Assembly: GCA_029210175.1 (NCBI GenBank) | Contig: JARGPL010000017.1 | Span: forward strand, 1-64,000 | Source: Minwuia sp. | Lineage (GTDB): Bacteria > Pseudomonadota > Alphaproteobacteria > Minwuiales > Minwuiaceae | Reading direction: 5' to 3' | Length of the DNA stretch: 64,000 nucleotides | Shown: positions 11,983 through 55,221 of the stretch, piece by piece | How the letters are laid out: the number at the start of each line of letters is the position of its first letter | Numbering within the stretch: the stretch's first letter is position 1 | Translations under genes and position numbers: made by a program | The notes under the pieces: model-generated | The model's database searches: none | The model's input: only the letters and a program-made list of their open reading frames with translations | Told to the model about the DNA's origin: nothing

Positions 11983-12384
11983 ATGGCCTACGACCGATCC
12001 CTGCCTGTGCTTGTCGTCGATGACTATCGCGATATTGTCCGGCTGCTGACCAACCTGCTGCGTCAGCTGGGGTTCAGTGACGTGGATGGGGCGACCAACG
12101 GGGCGGAGGCCCTGCGGAAGCTGCGCAAGCGCGAACATGCGCTGATCCTGGCTGACTGGAACATGGAACCGATGACGGGGCTGCAGCTGCTGCGGGAAAT
12201 CCGGGCCGACGCTGCCATGCAGGATCTGCCGTTCATCATGGTGACCGGCGAATCCAAGACCGAATATGTCGTCACCGCGAAGCGCGCGGGCGTCAGCAAT
12301 TACATCGTCAAGCCATTCAACCTGCAGGCTGTGCAGGATCGGATCGAGGCAACTGTGGGGGCTTTCGCGCCGCTGGATGACTGA
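11983..12384 (+). CDS. single-domain response regulator (CheY-like)
   Basis: A 133-residue receiver domain with no output domain. The acidic pair is at Asp13/Asp14 (VVDDYRD), the phospho-acceptor Asp58 in LADWNM, Thr88 in MVTGES and Lys110 in IVKPF. All key residues are present, so it should be phosphorylated by a histidine kinase encoded elsewhere and signal through a partner protein. No chemotaxis genes are adjacent. Confidence 0.9.
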   Translation: MAYDRSLPVLVVDDYRDIVRLLTNLLRQLGFSDVDGATNGAEALRKLRKREHALILADWNMEPMTGLQLLREIRADAAMQDLPFIMVTGESKTEYVVTAKRAGVSNYIVKPFNLQAVQDRIEATVGAFAPLDD

Positions 12385-12432
12385 TCTGGTGGCCGCTTGG
12401 GCGGGAGCGATTCCATCATTTGATGGACCGAT

Positions 12433-12807
12433 CTAGGAATCAATGTCGTTGTGCAGATCGACGCGATTCCGCACCTGCCAGGACTCGCCCGTTGCAATGA
12501 CGCAGCTGATGCCGTCTGCACCTGTCAGGATGATTGTCCAGCTGCTGCCTTCGCCGGATGAAAGGAGTTCGAGAACCGACCCGTTGGTCGCCAGACCCAT
12601 GGCGACCGGCGCCTCGCTGAAGCGATTGGAAAGCTGTTCCAGCACGGTGCTGCGGCTCTCGCAGATGCGTGTGCTGTCCGTGCTGCCGGCGACGCTGCCA
12701 TCCGCTTCGGCCTGCGCGGCAGGCCGACTGACGGGGACCAGACTGATGGCAATCGCTATCAGCCATGCCTGAACGCCAACGCCAGCCCTTGATGTCGCGA
12801 TCTTCAT
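12433..12807 (-). CDS. small secreted protein of unknown function
   Basis: The start at 12807 gives a signal peptide (MKIATSRAG, hydrophobic core AWLIAIAISLVPV, cleavage near RPAAQA). The mature ~90 residues have a conserved-looking block: CESR..VLEQLSNRFSEAPVAMGL, then LLSSGEGSSWTIILT and a second cysteine in GISCVIATGESW. Two cysteines suggest one disulfide. Similar small periplasmic proteins are common in alphaproteobacteria; no function is known to me. Confidence 0.75.
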   Translation of the reverse strand: MKIATSRAGVGVQAWLIAIAISLVPVSRPAAQAEADGSVAGSTDSTRICESRSTVLEQLSNRFSEAPVAMGLATNGSVLELLSSGEGSSWTIILTGADGISCVIATGESWQVRNRVDLHNDIDS

Positions 12808-12987
12808 CTCGACCACTCCGTGTCCGGGTCCCCATTCCGGGAGCCTGCACGATGGAGCGTAATGGCAGGGGCTGAATAATCGGTAAACGCGACCCGCGCT
12901 GCCTGAACCGCACCGTTGACCCCGGTTTTCGCCCCCGGTCGAAAAACCCCTTGTACTGCTTGGCACGCCCCGTCTATACCCGGCGGT

Positions 12988-13078
12988 GGAGAGGTGGCCG
13001 AGTGGCTTAAGGCGCTCCCCTGCTAAGGGAGTGGGGACTAATCCTCCCTCGTGGGTTCGAATCCCATCCTCTCCGCCA
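12988..13078 (+). tRNA. tRNA-Ser (anticodon GCU)
   Basis: The sequence folds as a class II tRNA. The acceptor stem is GGAGAGG with CCTCTCC, the discriminator is G and the CCA is encoded (13076-13078). There is a long variable arm and the T loop GTTCGAATC. The anticodon loop CTGCTAA gives anticodon GCU (serine, AGC/AGU codons). Its 3' two-thirds are supplied by the prophage attL and repeated at attR. Confidence 0.97.
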
Positions 13079-13079
13079 C
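13015..13079 (+). repeat. attL core (65 bp, 3' part of tRNA-Ser)
   Basis: From the anticodon stem to one base past CCA the sequence is identical to 55157-55221. The flanks differ immediately on both sides (GGCG before and TACC after, against CCAT and GATT), so the 65 bp defines the crossover segment. Because the copy is complete, the tRNA is restored after integration. Confidence 0.95.
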
Positions 13080-13283
13080 TACCCTTGAAATCACTGACTT
13101 TTTTCCGACGCTGCGCCCTGATCGGTGGCCGACATCAGATCCCTGAAGTGGACAGCGTCGGTCATAACCAGACGCACAAAGCCGGAACATCCCGATTCTG
13201 TGACACAGGACTGACACAGTCGGTTGCCACGGCGTTCCTATTCGTGCGCCTTGTTTTTCGCCTGTTTTTCTGTCGAGGCACCC

Positions 13284-13312
13284 TTGCGTATTAGGCACAA
13301 CGTGCCTATATA
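13284..13312 (+). promoter_or_regulatory. promoter with palindromic operator in its spacer
   Basis: A -35-like TTGCGT (13284-13289) and a -10-like TATATA (13307-13312) are 17 bp apart. The spacer holds the perfect palindrome AGGCAC-AAC-GTGCCT (13293-13307). The first gene of the downstream pair starts at 13340. The likely ligand is the HTH protein encoded at 13711 (inference). Confidence 0.6.
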
Positions 13313-13339
13313 TTATGTATCAACAAGGGCGACAGACAG

Positions 13340-13714
13340 ATGACCTCACATGCAATCAGCGGCAAGCGCCTGCCCTACAGCGTCGAAGGTCTGGCGCGCC
13401 GGTTCATTGACGGGATCAGGGCGGCGCTGACGCCGGACGAACTGGCGGAACTGATCCGCCGCACCAGCGGATCCGCGAAAACCGCGGGGCGATGCGCCAG
13501 CCTTGATTACATAGACGCGGCCGCGGTGATGGCGGCAGCGTTCGCGGACATGGCCGGCCATGAACCCGCCGGGCGGCCGGATCAACCTGCATGGTCTGTC
13601 GCTGGCGATCTGAGCATGATCGCCGACGCTTGGGTCGTTGCGCGACTCTGGGCGTGGACAGACGGCAAAGAAATCGAACAGGCCGCCCGCGTACCGGCGC
13701 GGGCCAGCGCATGA
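13340..13714 (+). CDS. prophage hypothetical protein, first gene of an HTH-linked cassette
   Basis: A 124-residue soluble protein with no recognisable domain. It is helix-rich, with GIRAALTPDELAELIRRTSG near residues 27-46 and an alanine-rich middle; the C-terminus ends in DGKEIEQAARVPARASA. It follows its own promoter and overlaps the next gene by 4 bp (ATGA). The next product is a small helix-turn-helix protein. This 'unknown gene plus HTH gene' order at a prophage end is the layout of anti-CRISPR operons, so it is a candidate anti-defence gene, on context only. Confidence 0.7.
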   Translation: MTSHAISGKRLPYSVEGLARRFIDGIRAALTPDELAELIRRTSGSAKTAGRCASLDYIDAAAVMAAAFADMAGHEPAGRPDQPAWSVAGDLSMIADAWVVARLWAWTDGKEIEQAARVPARASA

Positions 13715-13917
13715 ACGTGAAGGCATTCCTGGCGCGGCATTCCCTCACCGGGGCCGCGCTCGCGCGCCTGCTGGGCGTGTCGCCGCGGGCGGTGCGCACA
13801 TGGGAACAGGCGGGCGGGCCGAACGCACGCGCGATGCCGGACACGGTGCGACGGCTGCTATGGCTGATTGATCAGCACGGGCCGGATCTGCTGGCCGGAT
13901 ACCCCCCACCCGACTGA
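13711..13917 (+). CDS. small HTH protein (Aca-like candidate autorepressor)
   Basis: A 68-residue protein that is little more than a helix-turn-helix: SLTGAALARLLGVSPRAVRTWEQ (split as two helices at about residues 11-33), followed by a short C-terminal helix MPDTVRRLLWLI. Size, position as the second gene of a two-gene operon, and an inverted repeat in the promoter all match anti-CRISPR-associated (Aca) regulators, but sequence identity to any Aca family was not tested. Confidence 0.75.
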   Translation: MNVKAFLARHSLTGAALARLLGVSPRAVRTWEQAGGPNARAMPDTVRRLLWLIDQHGPDLLAGYPPPD

Positions 13918-13934
13918 TCGATTGTTGCAGTTCC

Positions 13935-13964
13935 GGACACGGCCTGCGTGTGCCAGTTTTTTTT
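13935..13964 (+). terminator. likely Rho-independent terminator
   Basis: The arms GGACACG (13935-13941) and CGTGTGCC (13947-13954) pair with one bulge, and eight T residues follow at 13957-13964. It lies 18 bp after the HTH gene and closes the first cassette before the promoter of the second. Confidence 0.55.
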
Positions 13965-13985
13965 GCGATATGGCAAAAGTTTTCA

Positions 13986-14014
13986 TTGACATGTACACCA
14001 ACAATGTACATATT
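13986..14014 (+). promoter_or_regulatory. second promoter with palindromic operator in its spacer
   Basis: A consensus -35 TTGACA (13986-13991) and a -10-like CATATT (14009-14014) are 17 bp apart. The spacer contains two ATGTACA elements (13991-13997 and 14004-14010), each built on the self-complementary TGTACA, separated by CCAACA. The arrangement copies that of the promoter at 13284 but with a different palindrome, so each cassette appears to have its own regulator. Confidence 0.6.
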
Positions 14015-14066
14015 GGATACATGGACGGCAGGGGATGGCCCAGCCGAAACACAAGGGGATAGCCCG

Positions 14067-14318
14067 ATGACCAGCCAGTATCAGACCAGCCGCCAGGTTT
14101 TCACCGCCGATGAGTATTTCGCGCTCGGCAACGTACCGCGTTACCTCCGTTCCGTTGAGGCGGTCTGTGTCAATGACCTCGACGAGACCGACGGATGGAG
14201 GCTGACCGCGCATCGTTCCGAATACCGGCAAGCCCTGAAGATCGTGAAGGCAGCAATCCTGCATCGGGCCGCTTTAGTCAAGGTTCGGGCCATTGAAGCG
14301 CGGTACGCGGCGCAGTGA
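14067..14318 (+). CDS. prophage hypothetical protein, first gene of the second HTH-linked cassette
   Basis: An 83-residue soluble protein starting at 14067 after an AAGGGGA ribosome site. It opens MTSQYQTSRQVFTADEYF and ends in a basic helix (KVRAIEARYAAQ). No domain is recognised. It overlaps the following HTH-bearing gene by 4 bp (GTGA). As with the gene at 13340, the context is that of an anti-CRISPR or other anti-defence gene; nothing in the sequence itself proves it. Confidence 0.7.
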   Translation: MTSQYQTSRQVFTADEYFALGNVPRYLRSVEAVCVNDLDETDGWRLTAHRSEYRQALKIVKAAILHRAALVKVRAIEARYAAQ

Positions 14319-14719
14319 CGCCCTACGGCCTGTTGCTTCTGACAACGGGGATGTCGCTGAAACAGGCGGCATCCCTGCACGATGTTCGGGAGGATACCAC
14401 CCGTTCATGGTCCAGCGGACGGCGGCAACCACCGACCGAAGCCCTTGATCAGCTGCGTGATCTCTACGACCAGATACAGACTGTTGCCGACAATCTTGTC
14501 CAGCACCTCGAAGATCTGGATGTCGATGATGCCCTGCCGTTGGAGATTGCCGTTTGCACAACGGACGCGGAGGCGGTGGATCGCGGCCTGCCCTTTGCCG
14601 CATGTCACCAACGGGCGATTGCCTGCGCCCTGACGGTGATTCTCAATCCTGTGGAACTGGTCACCGTGGCGCAAAGCACCGCTTCCCTGGTCCACGCCAG
14701 ACCAGCCGGCAACGCCTGA
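14315..14719 (+). CDS. HTH-domain protein, second gene of the second cassette
   Basis: A 134-residue protein starting at a GTG that overlaps the preceding stop. The N-terminal ~55 residues hold a DUF1870/Aca2-like helix-turn-helix (GMSLKQAASLHDVREDTTRSW, then SGRRQPP). The rest is an acidic helical domain (QHLEDLDVDDALPLE) that may dimerise or bind a partner. It probably represses the promoter at 13986. The family assignment is by pattern only. Confidence 0.7.
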   Translation: MTPYGLLLLTTGMSLKQAASLHDVREDTTRSWSSGRRQPPTEALDQLRDLYDQIQTVADNLVQHLEDLDVDDALPLEIAVCTTDAEAVDRGLPFAACHQRAIACALTVILNPVELVTVAQSTASLVHARPAGNA

Positions 14720-14769
14720 TCGGTTGCCAACGTACCCGCGCAACCGTTTCCCAATATGGCAGCAGTTTG

Positions 14770-15363
14770 TCAACCAGCCGCCGACCGCTTGTTCCATTCC
14801 AGAATAGCGGCGTTGGTCAGGGGCTTTTCGGTATCGGCCATTTCCCGCGCGAACTGTTCGTCATCGATCGCGGCGATGCCGGGGGTGTCGGGGGTGCGCA
14901 GGGTGCGCAGTTCGCGGATGCTTTCGGTCACCGCCTGCACCTTTGCCTTCCTGGCGGCGGGCGACGCTTCCGCCCTTCCCTTCCGACTGTGGGCCAGTTC
15001 CCGCGCGCCAAAGAAAAAGCTGACAATCGCGGCCAGCAGATACCACAGTTCATCCGGTATCAGGTCCAGCCCCTGCATGCGGATGCTGAACCCCACCGGA
15101 TCGGCCATGGCATAGACGAACAGGCCGACGGTGCCCAGCGCCAGCACCGGTCGCGGCAAGCGGTTCAGCCCGTCGATCAGCGCATCCCACCAGGTGCGGT
15201 TCTGCAGCTGGCGGAATTCCCCCGCGAACTGGCCCAGCACGGCCATGGTCTCGTCGTGGCCGGCGGCTTCCCGCGCGCCCTTGTCGCCCCACACCTTGCC
15301 TACGAAGCCGTTGACGACGTTGCCCACGCCCTCAACGACAGCACCAATCGGGTTCCATCTCAT
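14770..15363 (-). CDS. holin family protein (GTA-type, three membrane segments)
   Basis: A 197-residue protein with the core of the GTA_holin_3TM family. The stretch NRTWWDALIDGLNRLPRPVLAL leads (in two pieces) into TVGLFVYAMADPVGF, followed by LWYLLAAIVSFFFGARELAHS. Membrane segments lie at about residues 70-90 and 108-125. It would form the inner-membrane lesions that release the endolysin. It is the last gene of the late operon, adjacent to the accessory cassettes. Confidence 0.85.
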   Translation of the reverse strand: MRWNPIGAVVEGVGNVVNGFVGKVWGDKGAREAAGHDETMAVLGQFAGEFRQLQNRTWWDALIDGLNRLPRPVLALGTVGLFVYAMADPVGFSIRMQGLDLIPDELWYLLAAIVSFFFGARELAHSRKGRAEASPAARKAKVQAVTESIRELRTLRTPDTPGIAAIDDEQFAREMADTEKPLTNAAILEWNKRSAAG

Positions 15364-15689
15364 CGCATCACTCCGTCAGTAATCCAGCCGTGCCAGCGAC
15401 CCGGCCCACCATTTACTGATGGGGTAATGGTCGGCGCCTGCAGGTCGCCGTTCCATATCCAGCTGTGACCGTTCGACAAGACTTCCGGACGCAAAGCCAG
15501 CAGCCCGATGACCCCATCCAGGCCAATGAAAAACATGTGGTCGGGCCGCTCCCCCTGTTCCGGGATACGGAAAGCGCACCAAACACCATCCGCATCCTTT
15601 CCAGAACCGACCCGCCAGGCGATATCGCCGGGGGCTTTCAATTCGCTAAGCCTCTCACGGATAACAACAGTCGCTGAAGCTACGCCCAT
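15360..15689 (-). CDS. DUF6527-like prophage protein
   Basis: A 109-residue soluble protein that overlaps the holin gene by 4 bp. The C-terminal motif HSWIWNGDLQAPTITPSV, then GRWHGWITDGVM, resembles DUF6527 phage proteins, which lie in lysis or tail regions and have no assigned role. A hydrophobic segment FFIGLDGVIGLLAL sits in the middle but is too polar at its edges for a membrane helix. Confidence 0.65.
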   Translation of the reverse strand: MGVASATVVIRERLSELKAPGDIAWRVGSGKDADGVWCAFRIPEQGERPDHMFFIGLDGVIGLLALRPEVLSNGHSWIWNGDLQAPTITPSVNGGPGRWHGWITDGVMR

Positions 15690-16297
15690 GCCGCCGTCCT
15701 TTCGTGATGCTGCCGCGCGGTGTAGTGGAACTGCGCGGACATGAATTCCTCGGCACGGCGGATCCAGCCGCCCTTGCCGCCATCGCGCCGGCGGGCGAAG
15801 GCGCGCAGCTTTGGCCGCCGGTCGGCGATGCGGTAATAATAATCCCGGCGCTCGATCGCGTAGGCATCGACCAGCAGGTCGCCCATGGCCTGGTACGCCC
15901 TTTCGGCGGCGGAGGCTGTGCCCGGCCCGATGATGCCATCGGTTGCCAGATCGGCGTTACACGCCCGGTTCAGCACCGCCTGCAGCAGCCGCCCGGCATG
16001 GCTGCCGGCATTGACCTGCATGTCAAAGACGGCGGGTTGCAGCGGTTCCGGCAGACGCCATATCCCCGGCTTCTGATAGTAGCGATCGATGAACAGGCCG
16101 ACGGCGCGTTCGACCGTGACCAGCCGCACATCGGCGGCATCGACATCGCCGTCGCCATCCAGGTCCAGCCCCAGCCGGCGCATGGTGTGAATGGTGACGC
16201 CGTATTTCGTCGCGCCGCCCGGGTCGTTGGGGTGGTCAACGTACCCGCCTTCGCGCTCCACGATATGGCGGGCCATGGCTTCGATGCAGTTACTCAT
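15680..16297 (-). CDS. endolysin, glycoside hydrolase family 108 with peptidoglycan-binding domain
   Basis: The start at 16297 (MSNCIEAMAR) gives the standard 205-residue enzyme. Residues ~10-90 form the GH108 N-acetylmuramidase domain with the catalytic Glu16 in REGGYVDHPNDPGGATKYGVT. Residues ~95-185 form the PG_binding_3 domain (VFDMQVNAGSHAGRLLQ...GIIGPGT). It digests the cell wall at the end of the lytic cycle. No signal peptide, so export depends on the holin. An insert of acidic repeats DLDGDGDVDAADV is notable. Confidence 0.92.
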   Translation of the reverse strand: MSNCIEAMARHIVEREGGYVDHPNDPGGATKYGVTIHTMRRLGLDLDGDGDVDAADVRLVTVERAVGLFIDRYYQKPGIWRLPEPLQPAVFDMQVNAGSHAGRLLQAVLNRACNADLATDGIIGPGTASAAERAYQAMGDLLVDAYAIERRDYYYRIADRRPKLRAFARRRDGGKGGWIRRAEEFMSAQFHYTARQHHERTAAWA

Positions 16298-27838: not shown

Positions 27839-28207
27839 TCAGGCGGTGCGGCGTGCCGGGATGGATTCGGCGGCGCGGAATGTCGGGCCGAACATGGTGG
27901 CGGACAGGCCGGATTCGGTGCTGGCCTGCCGGATCAAGGCGTCGGCCATGCGGCGCAGGCGGGTGGCGGCGGCCTCGTCGGCAGGGTTCATGGCCCCGGC
28001 GCGCAGGAATTCGATGTCGTCGCGCATGGTGGCGAGGAACGCCAGGCGGTCGGCCGCGGTGCGGACAGCCGCATGGCTCAGGCTTTCGCGGGCGCCGTCG
28101 ATGTCGACCAGCAATGCCCCTTCGAACGCCACGTCGTCACCATCATTCAGGGCCAGCGCCATGCACAGCCGCCCGATGTCCGCCCCCTTCTGTGTTGCTC
28201 CGTTCAT
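27839..28207 (-). CDS. prophage hypothetical protein upstream of the antirepressor
   Basis: A 122-residue helical soluble protein, 11 bp upstream of the antirepressor gene and in the same orientation, so probably cotranscribed. Visible blocks are GRLCMALALNDGDDVAFEGA and DRLAFLATMRDDIEFLRAG. Divergent from the XRE regulator at 28284 across a region with two similar operators. No function is recognised. Confidence 0.65.
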   Translation of the reverse strand: MNGATQKGADIGRLCMALALNDGDDVAFEGALLVDIDGARESLSHAAVRTAADRLAFLATMRDDIEFLRAGAMNPADEAAATRLRRMADALIRQASTESGLSATMFGPTFRAAESIPARRTA

Positions 28208-28817: not shown

Positions 28818-29186
28818 TCAGGCCGTCGGAGGGTTTTCAGGGTCTTCGCCGTCCTCCGCTGCGTCTGCATCGGCGGCCTGTTCGTCGCCGCCGCTGAACG
28901 ACAGGACGATGCAACGGCGGACGGCGGCGAACGATCCCATGACATCGGCCACCAGGCACCCGTCCAGAAACGCCCGGTCCAGTTCACCGCCGGACAGTGC
29001 ATGCAGCGCCGCCACGATGTGGCTGACCTTCGGCGTGTCCAGGGCGCCGTGGGCCAGGTCGGCGATGCCGACCCCCCAGGCGTCTTCCAGCGCCGCCATG
29101 TTGCCCAGGGTGCCGACCAGCACCGCGGTGCGGCCCGCCACCGTAACGGTGACGGCGCCGCGTTGCGGGTTCGCGCGCTGGATCAT
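28818..29186 (-). CDS. tail assembly chaperone, G-like (GTA TAC_11 family)
   Basis: A 122-residue protein of the GTA TAC_11 family. It has a beta-sandwich start (ANPQRGAVTVTVAGRTAVLV) and then LEDAWGVGIADLAHGAL, and it ends in an acidic tail with repeated Glu/Asp and a slippery heptamer. Such chaperones coat the tape-measure protein during tail assembly. It overlaps the tail-tube gene by 4 bp. Confidence 0.8.
   Translation of the reverse strand: MIQRANPQRGAVTVTVAGRTAVLVGTLGNMAALEDAWGVGIADLAHGALDTPKVSHIVAALHALSGGELDRAFLDGCLVADVMGSFAAVRRCIVLSFSGGDEQAADADAAEDGEDPENPPTA
28830..28836 (-). other. programmed -1 ribosomal frameshift site A-AAC-CCT
   Basis: Read in the zero frame of the upstream chaperone, the heptamer is A AAC CCT, an exact X-XXY-YYZ slippery site. 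It lies four codons before its stop. Slipping to AAA CCC puts the ribosome in the frame of the TAC_6 protein (ENP then SDGLTPWGRWMELAFG). Twelve bases downstream is a CCCCC-T-GGGGG inverted repeat that could take part in a stimulating structure. Confidence 0.75.
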
Positions 29187-30506: not shown

Positions 30507-30850
30507 GTCGCCACCCCGCTTTCGGCAATCACCATCATGAACTGCGGGCGGGGGCCGCCGTTGTGTATCTCGCGGATGTTCAGGATCATGTCGGCGTTGC
30601 TGGTCCAGACCATGCGGGCGGCGGTGGTGAAATCCAGCCGGGTGCGCAGCATGATGCGGAACCGCTGGCTGAACTCGATGCGTCCGGCCTCCACGGCTTC
30701 CTTTGCCGTGATCGGCTCCACGCGGGCCCAGACCGTCGCCACCGTGGACCAGGCGCGGGTGAACCCGCCCTGGCCATCGGACGTGTTGCCCTGGCCTTCG
30801 ATGCGGATCCGCTGATCCATGGCCCCTGGCTGCATGCGCGGCCCGGCCAT
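30503..30850 (-). CDS. phage head closure protein (head-tail adaptor)
   Basis: A 115-residue protein of the SPP1 gp16/HK97 gp9-like adaptor family: MDQRIRIEGQ near the start, TVWARVEPITAKEAVEA, then FRIMLRTRLDFTTAARMVW. It forms the ring between connector and tail. The start at 30850 overlaps the connector gene stop. Confidence 0.85.
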   Translation of the reverse strand: MAGPRMQPGAMDQRIRIEGQGNTSDGQGGFTRAWSTVATVWARVEPITAKEAVEAGRIEFSQRFRIMLRTRLDFTTAARMVWTSNADMILNIREIHNGGPRPQFMMVIAESGVAT

Positions 30851-50012: not shown

Positions 50013-50897
50013 ATGACTGATGCACAAACAGTGACGCCGATGGCCGATCCGGTGCCGAGAACCCGCGCCGTGACGGCCAGCACGGCCCCCAACACCCGCC
50101 CCGGCCCGGCCCTGGATGGCACCGGCCCCGTCACGCCACCCCCCGTCACGACCCCGCCCGTCACGACCCCGCCCGGCACCCTGACCGAACAGGACCCGAC
50201 GCACCCGACCTGGCCATCACGCGCCGATGACTGGATTCATACCGGCACCTTCATGCCGACCGCGTCGGGGCGCATCTGGCCCTATCTGACCGCGACGGAA
50301 CAGGACGTGCACTGGCCCGACATCGCCGCGCACCTGTCGCGCATTCCGCGCTTCATGGGCGCGACCGACGGCGGCTGTTACTCCGTGGCGCAGCATTCGG
50401 TGGCGGTGATGCAACTGGCATCGCCAGCCGCCCGGCCCTGGGCCCTGCTGCACGACGCGCATGAGGCTTTTGTGGGTGACATGCTGACCCCGATCAAACG
50501 CGCCCTGCGCATCCGCGCCGCCTACACGGCGGAAACCATCAACATGCACTGGTATCATGGCGAGACCATTCTGAACGCGGCGCTGGAACACCTGCGCGAC
50601 GTGGCCGACCGCGCCATATTTGGCCGGGTCGGCATCGTCCCGCTGGCCACCGCCCCCCTCGCCATTCGCCAGGACGTCGCCCGCGCCGACCGCATCATGC
50701 TGGCGCGGGAGGCGCAATGGCTGCTGCCCGACGGCCCGGCGATGGACGCCTGGGCGACCTTCGACCGGGCCCTGTTCGAAATCGACCGCGGCCCGCAGAT
50801 CGAACCCCTGCACCCCGACGCGGCGGCGGCGCTGTTCCTGCACCACCTGCAGCAGGTCATCCCGACCACCCGCATCGACATGGAGGGGCAGGCATGA
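50013..50897 (+). CDS. HD-domain phosphohydrolase (YfbR-like nucleotidase)
   Basis: ATG 50013 follows an AAAGGG site. The 294-residue product starts with a proline/threonine repeat region (residues ~20-60, PPVTTPPVTTPP). The HD domain follows: YSVAQHSVAVMQL (His), WALLHDAHEAFVGDM (His-Asp) and a late acidic ARADRIML. YfbR-type enzymes remove phosphate from deoxynucleotides; in a phage it may supply nucleosides or deplete dNMPs. Confidence 0.8.
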   Translation: MTDAQTVTPMADPVPRTRAVTASTAPNTRPGPALDGTGPVTPPPVTTPPVTTPPGTLTEQDPTHPTWPSRADDWIHTGTFMPTASGRIWPYLTATEQDVHWPDIAAHLSRIPRFMGATDGGCYSVAQHSVAVMQLASPAARPWALLHDAHEAFVGDMLTPIKRALRIRAAYTAETINMHWYHGETILNAALEHLRDVADRAIFGRVGIVPLATAPLAIRQDVARADRIMLAREAQWLLPDGPAMDAWATFDRALFEIDRGPQIEPLHPDAAAALFLHHLQQVIPTTRIDMEGQA

Positions 50898-51079: not shown

Positions 51080-51253
51080 GTGTTGCACCGCGATGCCCGC
51101 GATGACGTGCAACAGTTCCGCGCTGCGTTTGCCCAGGAATGGGAAAACATGCTGGATGCAGATGGTCGCTCGCCAAGGCTTCCGCACCGCGACGATGCGT
51201 TTATCCGCTACCTGATGGATACTGCAAAGGGTTCCGTGGACGGTGCGTCATGA
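51080..51253 (+). CDS. very small prophage protein (57 aa, GTG start)
   Basis: A frame from GTG 51080, directly after the preceding stop, to TGA 51251-51253, overlapping the next gene by 4 bp. It reads LHRDARDDVQQFRAAFAQEW, then ENMLDADGRSP. An internal ATG at 51149 would leave 34 residues. Operon packing on both sides supports it; no domain is seen. Confidence 0.5.
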   Translation: MLHRDARDDVQQFRAAFAQEWENMLDADGRSPRLPHRDDAFIRYLMDTAKGSVDGAS

Positions 51254-52254
51254 CCACCGCCACCGGCATTGAATGGACCGGGCATGTCTGGAATCCCATC
51301 GTCGGCTGCAGCGTGCTGTCGAAGGGCTGCACCAACTGCTACGCCATGTCGATGGCGCACCGGCTGGGCAGCATGGCCGCCACGCCGCATTATCACGGCC
51401 TGACGCGGAAGGTGAAAGGCACCGTGGTCTGGACCGGCAAGGTAGCCGCCGCGCCCGATGCCACCTGGCTGGCGCCGCTGAAACGCCGCAAGCCGACCAC
51501 CTATTTCGTCAACTCCATGGGTGATCCGTTCCATGAAGCGGTGCCCGATGTCTTGGTCGACTACATGTTCGCCATCATGGCGCTCTGCCCGCAGCACATT
51601 TTCCAGATCCTGACCAAGCGACCGGAACGGATGCGGGATTTCATGGCCCACATCCTGTCGCGGCGACTAGTGGGTGGCCAAAACTGGCCTACCTCCCCAC
51701 TGGAGGATGCCGCATTCAACATAGTTGAGGATATGGGCCTCGATGGCAACGTCGCCGCCACTTCCGCTTATGAGGCTTGGCATGACTGGCCTCTCCCCAA
51801 CGTCTGGCTCGGCACGTCGGTGGAGGATCAGGCCAGCGCCGACGCCCGCATCCCCGCCCTGCTGGACACCCCCGCCGCGATCCGCTTCATCAGTGCCGAA
51901 CCCTTGCTGGGGCCGGTGGACCTGACACTAGATGGCCTGATGTACTTCGACTGCGCCGACGACTGCGAATACCGGTTCCACGACTACACGACAGGCGTTA
52001 CCGAGTGCCGTCGTTGTGAGGACAGCTTCAAGACTGACGACCCTGGTCTTGATTGGGTCATCTGTGGCGGCGAGGCCGGTCCCGGTGCCCGTCCCATGCA
52101 CCCTGATTGGGCACGTTCCCTGCGCGACCAGTGCGCCGCTGCCGGTGTCCCGTTCTTTATGAAGCAGATGAGCGCAGTCACGCTGGATGGGGCGAAGGCC
52201 GACAAGACGGCCATCCCGGACGATCTCCTTATCCGGGAGGTGCCCAATGCCTAG
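51250..52254 (+). CDS. phage Gp37/Gp68 family protein (DUF5131)
   Basis: A 334-residue protein with the DUF5131 hallmarks. These are a radical-SAM-like cysteine cluster near the N-terminus (IVGCSVLSKGCTNCYAMS), ILTKRPERMRDFM, NVWLGTSVEDQ and the C-terminal WVICGGEAGPGARPMHPDWA, then VPFFMKQM. The family is frequent in phages; the reaction is not known. Confidence 0.92.
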   Translation: MTTATGIEWTGHVWNPIVGCSVLSKGCTNCYAMSMAHRLGSMAATPHYHGLTRKVKGTVVWTGKVAAAPDATWLAPLKRRKPTTYFVNSMGDPFHEAVPDVLVDYMFAIMALCPQHIFQILTKRPERMRDFMAHILSRRLVGGQNWPTSPLEDAAFNIVEDMGLDGNVAATSAYEAWHDWPLPNVWLGTSVEDQASADARIPALLDTPAAIRFISAEPLLGPVDLTLDGLMYFDCADDCEYRFHDYTTGVTECRRCEDSFKTDDPGLDWVICGGEAGPGARPMHPDWARSLRDQCAAAGVPFFMKQMSAVTLDGAKADKTAIPDDLLIREVPNA

Positions 52255-53929: not shown

Positions 53930-54297
53930 CCACCCCCCTCCTCCCCACAGCAGACGCCATTGCCTGGCTCGCGGCCCGTGGCGTGCAGGTCAGCGAGAAG
54001 ACACTCGCGCGCAAGCGGCAGGCGGGTGATCTCGGCTATGTGGTGGGAATCGGGCGACATCGGGTACTCTATCGCCCGGCAGAGCTGCAGCGCCTGCTGA
54101 CAGACAGGGAGGTGGACCCATGCCGCTCAGACTCACACGGCGGGGCGACACGCCGCACTGGTATCTCCACGGCACCGTCGGCAGGCGCCGAGTACGCGAG
54201 AGCACAGGCACGGCTGAGAAAGCCGCAGCCGACCGCATCCGCATCCGCCGCGAAACCGAAATCCTCGACCGTCATATCCATGGCCCGAAATCGGTAG
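53926..54297 (+). CDS. excisionase-like HTH protein overlapping the integrase
   Basis: From GTG 53926 the first ~65 residues look like an excisionase or HTH_17 protein: LLPTADAIAWLAARGVQVSE, then KTLARKRQAGDLGYVVGIG and RHRVLYRPAELQRLL. The frame then runs 178 bp into the integrase gene in another phase, giving a basic, low-complexity tail. The working protein may depend only on the first part. Next to int, the role is directional control of excision. Confidence 0.75.
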   Translation: MTTPLLPTADAIAWLAARGVQVSEKTLARKRQAGDLGYVVGIGRHRVLYRPAELQRLLTDREVDPCRSDSHGGATRRTGISTAPSAGAEYARAQARLRKPQPTASASAAKPKSSTVISMARNR

Positions 54298-55142
54298 CGA
54301 CGTTTCCGGAGGCCCTGAATCTCTACCTCGATCAGGGCGGGGAGGGGCGATTCGCCGCCCGCCTGCTGACTCATTTCGCCACCACCCGCCTGGCCGCGAT
54401 CGACCAGGCCGCGATCGCGGCGGCGGCGCGCCGGCTCTATCCGGATGCGGCGCCCGCCACCGTCAACCGCCAGCTGATCACTCCACTTTCGGCGATCATG
54501 AACGTCGCCGCCGACCACGGCCTGTGCGACCCGCCGCGCTTCAAGCGCCGCCGCGTCCGCCCGCCACAGCGCCGCGCCGTCCCGCCGGAATGGCTGGCCG
54601 CCGTCATGGCACAAGCCGCGCCGCACCTGGCCGCGCTGCTCGCCTTCATGGCCTTCTCCGGCGCGCGCATATCGGAGGCCGTGCGCCTCACCTGGGCCGA
54701 CATCGACCTGGCTGCGGGCGATGCGGTGCTGCACTGCACCAAGACACAGCCGCGCCGCGTGGCCCTGCCGCCGACCGTCGTCGCCGCGATCGCCAGCATC
54801 CCCGGCCCGCGCCGGCCGGCAGCGCCGGTGTTCCGCTACAGCCACCGATCCAGCCCCATCGACGCCCTGGCCACGGCCTGCCGCCGGGCGGATGTGCCGG
54901 TCCATTCTTTCCATGAAATCGGCCGCCACACCTTCGCCACCTGGATGCTGCAGCAGGGCGAGACCCTGGCCGACGTGGCCGACGCCGGCGGCTGGAAATC
55001 CATCGCCCTGGTCAAGGACATCTATGGCCATCTGGAACACTCCCGTACCGACCGCGCCGTCCGCAATCTGGACCGGCGATTGACACAATCGGGACACACC
55101 GACGAAACCGAACAACCCGAACCTGTTGAAAAAAAACGATAA
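54120..55142 (+). CDS. int: tyrosine-type site-specific integrase
   Basis: A 340-residue recombinase. The N-terminal arm-type region is basic (residues 1-55), followed by a core-binding domain. The catalytic domain has Arg183 (FSGARISEAVRL), Lys208 (CTKTQPRRV), His265 and Arg269 (FHEIGRHTFATW) and the nucleophile Tyr302 (KDIYGHLEH). It ends 14 bp before attR, the usual position for a tRNA-targeting phage integrase. Confidence 0.95.
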   Translation: MPLRLTRRGDTPHWYLHGTVGRRRVRESTGTAEKAAADRIRIRRETEILDRHIHGPKSVATFPEALNLYLDQGGEGRFAARLLTHFATTRLAAIDQAAIAAAARRLYPDAAPATVNRQLITPLSAIMNVAADHGLCDPPRFKRRRVRPPQRRAVPPEWLAAVMAQAAPHLAALLAFMAFSGARISEAVRLTWADIDLAAGDAVLHCTKTQPRRVALPPTVVAAIASIPGPRRPAAPVFRYSHRSSPIDALATACRRADVPVHSFHEIGRHTFATWMLQQGETLADVADAGGWKSIALVKDIYGHLEHSRTDRAVRNLDRRLTQSGHTDETEQPEPVEKKR

Positions 55143-55156
55143 TCCGCTTTCTCCAT

Positions 55157-55221
55157 CTCCCCTGCTAAGGGAGTGGGGACTAATCCTCCCTCGTGGGTTC
55201 GAATCCCATCCTCTCCGCCAC
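55157..55221 (+). repeat. attR core (65 bp)
   Basis: Identical to 13015-13079 and immediately downstream of int. This is the displaced 3' end of the original tRNA-Ser gene; lacking the 5' half, it is not a functional tRNA. Confidence 0.95.

Follow-up and report, generated by a model that had tools for sequence, protein, structure and literature searches.

The left end of a prophage in the genome of Minwuia sp. (assembly GCA_029210175.1, contig JARGPL010000017.1, positions 1 to 64,000 of the forward strand, hereafter the window) carries two consecutive two-gene cassettes, each comprising a small gene (U1 or U2) followed by a gene encoding a helix-turn-helix (HTH) protein (H1 or H2). Cassette 2 encodes U2 (14067..14318, + strand), an 83-amino-acid (aa) orphan and the main candidate for a protein directed against the clustered regularly interspaced short palindromic repeats (CRISPR) nuclease Cas9, and H2 (14315..14719, + strand), a 134-aa HTH regulator predicted to adopt the Aca2/YdiL fold. 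On balance, it is reasonably likely that cassette 2 is an operon of the anti-CRISPR (acr)-aca2 type of a temperate phage, with U2 as the cargo aimed at the host Cas9. The original prediction, which proposed both cassettes as candidate acr/aca operons from their layout, is supported for cassette 2 by the Aca2-fold regulator, the conserved operator and leader, the unrelated cargo genes, and self-targeting host spacers, whereas cassette 1 offers the layout only. The four open reading frames (ORFs), their lengths and the 4-bp overlaps it described were confirmed; it had missed two leader hairpins (14026-14046 and 14055-14065), the kinship between H2 and Aca2, and the host spacers that target the prophage.

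H2 is very probably an Aca2-type regulator of the cassette 2 operon. Members of the H2 family were collected from 25 places: the window, a genome of the same genus with a sister prophage (G005, 54% identity to H2), a Bradyrhizobium phage, genome contigs (16 places, with G005 counted again among them), and viral contigs (seven places). Among all PDB sequences, the best match of a profile built from 18 family proteins was Aca2 (7ezy) over its full length (E 5e-6), and the Pfam family Aca2_YdiL matched nine of the 18 members at E<=1, with a best value of 0.0012. The AlphaFold2 model of H2 (predicted local distance difference test, pLDDT, 90.9) aligned over both domains with SO3848 (Z 12.6), Aca2 7ezy (11.2), ZF40 Aca2 (9.9-10.3) and 1s4k (9.3), with residues 1-128 aligned to 7ezy and residues 1-116 to ZF40 Aca2; chains aligned over the HTH only ranked lower, the next being Aca10 (52 residues, Z 7.6). 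SO3848 (2OX6), the best structural match of H2, and YdiL (1S4K) share this two-domain fold and are the two Aca2 structural homologs named in the Aca2 structure paper, a passage of which describes both as having no known function and neither as lying in a recognized prophage or island (PMC8434428). The model thus combines an N-terminal HTH with a predicted Aca2-type C-terminal domain, and a protein of the Aca2/YdiL fold would be expected to dimerize. Three results count against the assignment: H2 alone scores below the curated threshold of Pfam Aca2_YdiL (PF08965; 12.1 bits vs a cut-off of 23.8, E 0.22), Foldseek reached E<=0.001 for SO3848 alone (Aca2 7ezy 0.0024, ZF40 Aca2 0.016-0.12), and hhalign of the H2 family against ZF40 Aca2 alone covered the HTH only. 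Cassette 2 belongs with Aca2-type operons by fold and distant homology, as a divergent branch under current family cut-offs. Across 385 genomes of the class, 15 contained a match to the H2 profile; the 13 besides the window's own genome (G000) and G005 were weak (E 5.6e-7 to 7.6e-4) and mostly confined to the HTH.

The promoter of cassette 2 (TTGACA-17-CATATT, 13986..14014, + strand) contains the palindrome ATGTAC-N9-GTACAT at 13991-14011, which had been placed within the spacer; it is present, but overlaps both the spacer and the -10 element. Taken alone, this palindrome is weak, since about 0.1 repeats with arm 6 and a loop of 3-8 nt would be expected in any 29 nt. Over 21 H2-family promoters, however, a palindrome is conserved between -35 and -10, and in these extracted promoters 97.1% of the palindrome cells were paired, with a covariation score of 0.273 compared to 0.081 for shuffled sequences. 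A core-promoter inverted repeat, a feature of Aca2-type operons, is present as a putative operator.

Behind this control region, the cargo is exchanged. From the -35 element to the start codon, 71 of 84 positions are identical between the window and G005, in which a similar holin adjoins the operon (L003 134-736, likeness by eye), whereas the gene between the leader and H2 is unrelated, U2 having been replaced. Over the family, the first genes behind 21 leaders form 15 groups without detectable similarity (blastp and phmmer links), as expected of anti-defence cargo. When ten cargo proteins were scanned, none exceeded the Pfam cut-off (three weak matches, E 0.02-0.06) and one matched a PHROG, with unknown function. 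U1 and U2 likewise matched nothing in Pfam, NCBIfam or PADLOC at E<=1, in line with their earlier description as proteins of no known family. U2 has no PHROG match and no PDB sequence match at E<=10, and its structure predicted without relatives is too uncertain for a structure search (pLDDT 73.6, predicted template modelling score 0.51). The family presents a conserved regulator behind unrelated small genes on mobile elements, as judged from prophage borders and phage genes in the window and from phage genes at locus L030. A cargo protein of about 120 aa (GFWGTM..RAFLDSRYGRHFADGV..LPYLTGFV, phrog_8020, function unknown) recurs in H2 operons of Roseomonas (L024 5632-5994, L025, L027, L033) and of viral contigs (L043, L044), where the first gene ahead of it mostly differs; L044 has it in one frame with another cargo protein.

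The host of the prophage appears to be a self-targeting lysogen, with an intact-looking CRISPR-Cas system and spacers against its resident prophage. Its type II locus comprises cas2, cas1 (type II by TIGR03639) and cas9 (1048 aa; 607 bits vs a cut-off of 100; RuvC and HNH motifs recognizable by eye), all three uninterrupted, and an anti-repeat upstream of cas9 (3 mismatches in 24) fixes the direction of the CRISPR RNA. The array contains 33 near-identical repeats and 32 spacers of 30 nt, and the system is presumably of subtype II-C. The window contains matches to five of the 32 spacers (0, 1, 2, 3 and 6 mismatches of 30), and all five protospacers lie within the prophage. Spacer 15 matches perfectly (30/30) inside H1 (13822..13851, - strand, 3' flank CGGCC), followed by spacer 27 with 1 mismatch (27943..27972, - strand, ACGCC), spacer 22 with 2 (28819..28848, + strand, CCGTC), spacer 23 with 3 (30775..30804, + strand, GGATC), and spacer 6 with 6 (50391..50420, + strand, TCGCC). 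As controls, none of 320 shuffled spacers matched with fewer than 8 mismatches, and in 73 kb of other loci the best result for the real spacers was also 8. The five 3' flanks share R-Y-C at positions 3 to 5 (NN-R-Y-C), a pattern noticed after the fact and compatible with a protospacer adjacent motif (PAM). With respect to that side, spacers 22 and 23 have their mismatches toward the PAM, and spacer 27 has its single one at the PAM-distal end. Against the G005 contig, the host spacers gave no match at <=7 mismatches. In another genome of the genus (G007, locus L095 on contig C32), 42 spacers were read from an array that is type I-like by repeat length, one of which matches prophage positions 52156-52188 with 5/33 mismatches, within ORF 51139-52254; that host, too, seems to have encountered relatives of this phage.

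Self-targeting recurs in a second host of the family. In the metagenome bin G395, which carries L030, 2 of the 16 spacers of one array match its own H2-bearing prophage, at 0 and 1 mismatch, and the array adjoins a 1075-aa ORF that is Cas9-like by its first residues. Elsewhere, the closest matches of these 16 spacers had 7 mismatches in the 64-kb window and 8 across eight other loci. The 1-mismatch spacer is the cleaner of the two, because the perfect match falls in a GC-rich palindromic stretch between genes. Six of ten L030 proteins match PHROGs, and the tail, baseplate and endolysin families among them confirm a prophage. G395 carries two arrays (on C30 and C62), both with 36-nt repeats and 30-nt spacers, with differing repeats and each near a Cas1 match. 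Among 12 further H2-family hosts, five gave a Cas1 match, and the arrays near cas1 were read in those five.

Because the lysogen survives several matching spacers, a cassette 2 cargo that blocks Cas9 is the best single explanation, and something in the virus probably holds the host Cas9 in check. The inhibitor could also come from cassette 1 or from a gene elsewhere in the prophage; the chance that it is U2 or U1 appears slightly better than even. The setting resembles that of the AcrIIC proteins, which act against type II-C Cas9, in the type II Cas1, Cas2 and Cas9 of the host and in the small orphan phage proteins U2 and U1, and differs in that U1 and U2 match no PDB chain at E<=10 and in that the II-C subtype of the host is itself only presumed.

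The strongest competitor, possible but clearly less probable, is an operon under Aca2-type regulation, of the anti-defence or moron kind, whose cargo hits another target (restriction, another defence, superinfection, or lysis timing), the tolerance of Cas9 having another cause or an acr gene elsewhere in the prophage. The great diversity of cargo, with 15 groups after 21 leaders, would suit such an operon, and a part of PMC9410906 places only 3% of Aca2-like proteins (35/1223) with upstream acr genes. The hosts also include cases that weigh against a Cas9 target: G005 carries the operon and gave no cas1 match, Cas1 was not matched in 7 of the 12 further hosts, the second G395 array (22 spacers) had no match in the approximately 9-12 kb compared, and neither did the arrays of G396 (3 spacers), G399 (6), G400 (4) and G394 (7) in loci of that size. 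On the other side, type II-like arrays of 32 and 16 spacers in two hosts target the operon-bearing prophage, although the other array of G395 does not.

Somewhat less probable still is that the self-targeting is harmless and calls for no anti-CRISPR, Cas9 being silent, the PAM wrong, or the assembly a mixture of strains. Self-targeting is a known guide to anti-CRISPRs, and silent systems and changes in PAM or target are listed as its alternatives in a section of PMC6990116. In favor of this reading, G395 is a metagenome bin. However, Cas9, Cas1, Cas2, the anti-repeat and the 33 near-identical repeats look intact, the five protospacers share the NN-R-Y-C flank (with the reservation that it was noticed afterwards), and several spacers are directed against one prophage in one host, with recurrence in a second.

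Between the -10 element and the start codon, the cassette 2 transcript would form two hairpins, both of which occupy this position across the H2 family: HP1 (CGGC-A-GGG-GAUGG-CCC-A-GCCG, 14026..14046, + strand) and HP2 (GGG-GAUAG-CCC, 14055..14065, + strand), which overlaps the Shine-Dalgarno sequence of U2. The leader set consisted of 21 distinct sequences from the 25 places, L032 being dropped as a copy of L031 and none being found in L033, L038 and the Bradyrhizobium phage; several members, L025, L027 and L044 among them, are close mutual relatives. The HP1 stem spans about 7-8 positions, commonly with an inner mismatch, and by eye AU(N)RG occurs in its loop in all leaders except L036, L037 and L041, hence in 18 of 21 (for L041 the automatic stem choice was poor). 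HP2 is a stem of 3-4 pairs at the ribosome site, with the Shine-Dalgarno sequence in its loop in about half of the members (by eye). In a sequence-only alignment of the 21 leaders, 78.9% of cells were paired (68.8% in shuffles), 20 cells showed two-sided change (9.2 in shuffles), and the covariation score was 0.257 (0.125 in shuffles, at most 0.140 for slid structures); none of 500 shuffles reached any of the three values. At the innermost HP1 position, 17 leaders have a G-C pair and four (L024, L025, L027, L044) an A-U pair, which may represent one event, because the four carriers are close relatives. The leader probably acts as RNA. Several observations pull in the opposite direction. Pairs with two-sided change (8/12) were matched by 11 of 500 shuffles; kinship alone can beat shuffles, and the structure came from the same sequences. 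The stability of single leaders is modest (mean z -1.65 over 21 vs shuffles), the window's leader scores lowest in the family (21.8 bits, E 0.005), and a search of the 385 class genomes with the leader model under stricter filters missed this very leader. That search gave 12 matching genomes at E<=0.01, with about 4 expected by chance; the G005 match is real, and the other 11 were taken as chance matches, as the 60 nt upstream and the ORFs behind, read by eye, showed no family promoter palindrome. Rfam gave no family for the leaders in the regions searched, which were 6 of 23 family loci and the corresponding stretches of the window and of ZF40. The H2 relative of the Bradyrhizobium phage ppBeUSDA76-1 is 35% identical, and no leader was recognized when the surroundings of its operon were read by eye.

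The plan of cassette 2 resembles the acrIF8-aca2 operon (gp31 and gp30) of the Pectobacterium phage ZF40, the Aca2 operon in which it is clearest. Both have a palindrome in the core promoter and a small orphan gene followed by an HTH gene whose product has a C-terminal domain of the same fold, for dimerization in Aca2 and predicted to serve it in H2. By inspection and hairpin scan, their leaders look similar, with an AUGG-loop hairpin that a G-C pair closes and, at the ribosome site, a second small hairpin; in ZF40 the first hairpin has nine pairs and the small one carries the Shine-Dalgarno sequence in its 3' arm. The two also differ. H2 is about 16% identical to ZF40 Aca2 in the structural alignment and below the Pfam cut-off, the operator is of the TACAC..GTGTA or GTAC type in the H2 family and GTTCGC..GCGAAC in ZF40, the HP2 loop holds the Shine-Dalgarno sequence in roughly half of the H2 leaders and the 3' arm holds it in ZF40 (by eye), and the setting here is Alphaproteobacteria and a host system of type II, not I-F. 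Seven loci of Aca2 relatives served as yardsticks: the plan was partly seen in Serratia (loop AUUAG) and Photobacterium damselae (ACUAG), in part and with other loops in P. toruni and two Pasteurella phages, and was not clear in Shewanella and Acinetobacter. The H2-family leader model weakens the comparison, as it found nothing in the ZF40 leader and gave only weak matches in these seven loci, scoring the true leaders of P. damselae (L061) and Serratia (L060) at E 1.4 and 2.3, below chance matches at E 0.18-0.39. On a Shewanella baltica plasmid (L059), two direct GCCGCT-TATTC-AGCGGT hairpins, not of the AU(N)RG design, precede a small gene upstream of an Aca2-like gene.

The same comparison bears on the doubtful alternative that HP1 is a second DNA operator (IR2) only and not an RNA element. 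The acrIF8-aca2 promoter has two mutually similar inverted repeats, the second of which resembles the first (IR1) and is dispensable for transcriptional repression, according to passages of PMC8434428 and PMC9410906. Covariation alone, moreover, cannot separate a DNA palindrome from an RNA stem. In the H2 family, in contrast to ZF40, HP1 (GGG..CCC) is unlike the DNA operator (TACAC..GTGTA), and two-sided variation is also seen in HP2, the hairpin at the ribosome site. G.U cells outnumber A.C cells, by 9 to 3 in 16 leaders (five near duplicates removed) and by 10 to 6 in all 21, which is suggestive only but hints at RNA rather than DNA. A 2024 title by Birkholz, concerning Aca2, reportedly describes an HTH protein that binds both RNA and DNA.

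Cassette 1 has a putative promoter (TTGCGT-17-TATATA, 13284..13312, + strand), the spacer of which contains the palindrome TAGGCAC-AAC-GTGCCTA at 13292-13308, as previously described. Perfect repeats of arm 7 and loop 3 occur 17 times in the 64-kb window, so one within a given 17-nt spacer is not expected; a promoter scan of the window does not list this promoter, and no leader hairpin of the cassette 2 kind was seen. U1 (13340..13714, + strand), a 124-aa orphan and candidate anti-defence protein, weakly matches phrog_21393 (function unknown, E 6e-7), has no PDB sequence match at E<=10, and was found in its own genome alone among nine genomes of the family. H1 (13711..13917, + strand), a 68-aa protein with weak HTH matches only, is the presumed repressor of the cassette. 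In the 385 class genomes it was found in its own genome and, as weak partial matches (E 3.4e-4 to 8.6e-4), in five others. Like short Aca proteins with a single HTH, such as Aca1, it is one short HTH protein with a promoter palindrome, and it differs from them in having no significant sequence match to a solved Aca. A single-sequence search of viral contigs returned no close homologs of U1, H1, U2 or H2. Cassette 1 thus has a palindrome without a demonstrated relation to a known Aca family, and a separate regulator for each palindrome would be consistent with the data. It is very improbable that the two cassettes encode toxin-antitoxin pairs (U1-H1, U2-H2) in which the HTH protein is the antitoxin: a small gene, an overlapping HTH gene and a palindromic promoter are a toxin-antitoxin layout too, and the solved chains nearest to H1 are HigA-2 (E 0.47-0.57, not significant), but U1 and U2 match no toxin-antitoxin family in Pfam, NCBIfam or PADLOC, the C-terminal domain of H2 is of the Aca2/YdiL type, and cargo swaps under one regulator family would not be readily allowed by a cognate pair.

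The terminator proposed between the cassettes is plausible as a hairpin with a bulged stem followed by a tract of 8 T (13935..13964, + strand), although terminator-like sites are not clearly enriched locally (5 within 12000-16000 vs 3.2 expected, sd 1.7). Both cassettes lie at the left end of a complete 42-kb prophage inserted at tRNA-Ser(GCT) (12988-13078, ARAGORN). The prophage is bounded by attL (13015..13079), a 65-bp copy of the 3' part of the tRNA gene, and its exact direct repeat attR (55157..55221), which a tyrosine integrase gene adjoins (54120..55142, + strand; phrog_1, E 1.9e-40). The tail fibre, tape measure, major head and large terminase genes all lie between attL and attR, and a holin gene of the gene transfer agent type (14770..15363, - strand; PF11351, E 5e-25) neighbors cassette 2. 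A prophage protein encoded at 41898-43688 matches both DNA methyltransferase and DNA primase PHROGs and may be a second counter-defence gene.

In the mechanism that we propose, the TTGACA promoter would produce a burst of U2 and H2 on infection or induction, after which H2 would shut the operon off at the DNA level by occupying the palindrome between -35 and -10. By analogy with Aca2, H2 would also act on RNA, binding HP1 through its AU(N)RG-type loop and HP2 at the ribosome site; both DNA and RNA binding by H2 would be expected on this model. U2 would be the protective cargo, with the host's own type II Cas9 as its likeliest target, and U1 would be a second candidate inhibitor under a separate palindrome and its own HTH protein, H1.

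Few anti-CRISPRs are known in Alphaproteobacteria, and no publication title on this system surfaced for Aca2 in Alphaproteobacteria, Aca2 leader stem-loops, or CRISPR in Minwuia. We tentatively put forward, at somewhat less than even probability, a broader hypothesis in which a separate alphaproteobacterial branch of Aca2-type regulators runs a large unrecognized pool of anti-defence genes through a portable cartridge (operator, two-hairpin RNA leader and HTH gene) with swapped cargo, the operator and the hairpin having drifted apart in sequence, and in which U2, U1 and at least some of the other cargo groups are new type II Cas9 inhibitors. If this is true, a single HTH surface would recognize a DNA operator and an RNA hairpin that no longer look alike. 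The family also offers a divergent system for asking how a small HTH domain might read both. The H2 family, together with its operator and leader, provides bait for candidate anti-defence genes that the family libraries searched do not recognize. This bait is tied to a natural self-targeting experiment in two hosts, which makes U2 and U1 directly testable against a type II Cas9 whose sequence and spacers are known.

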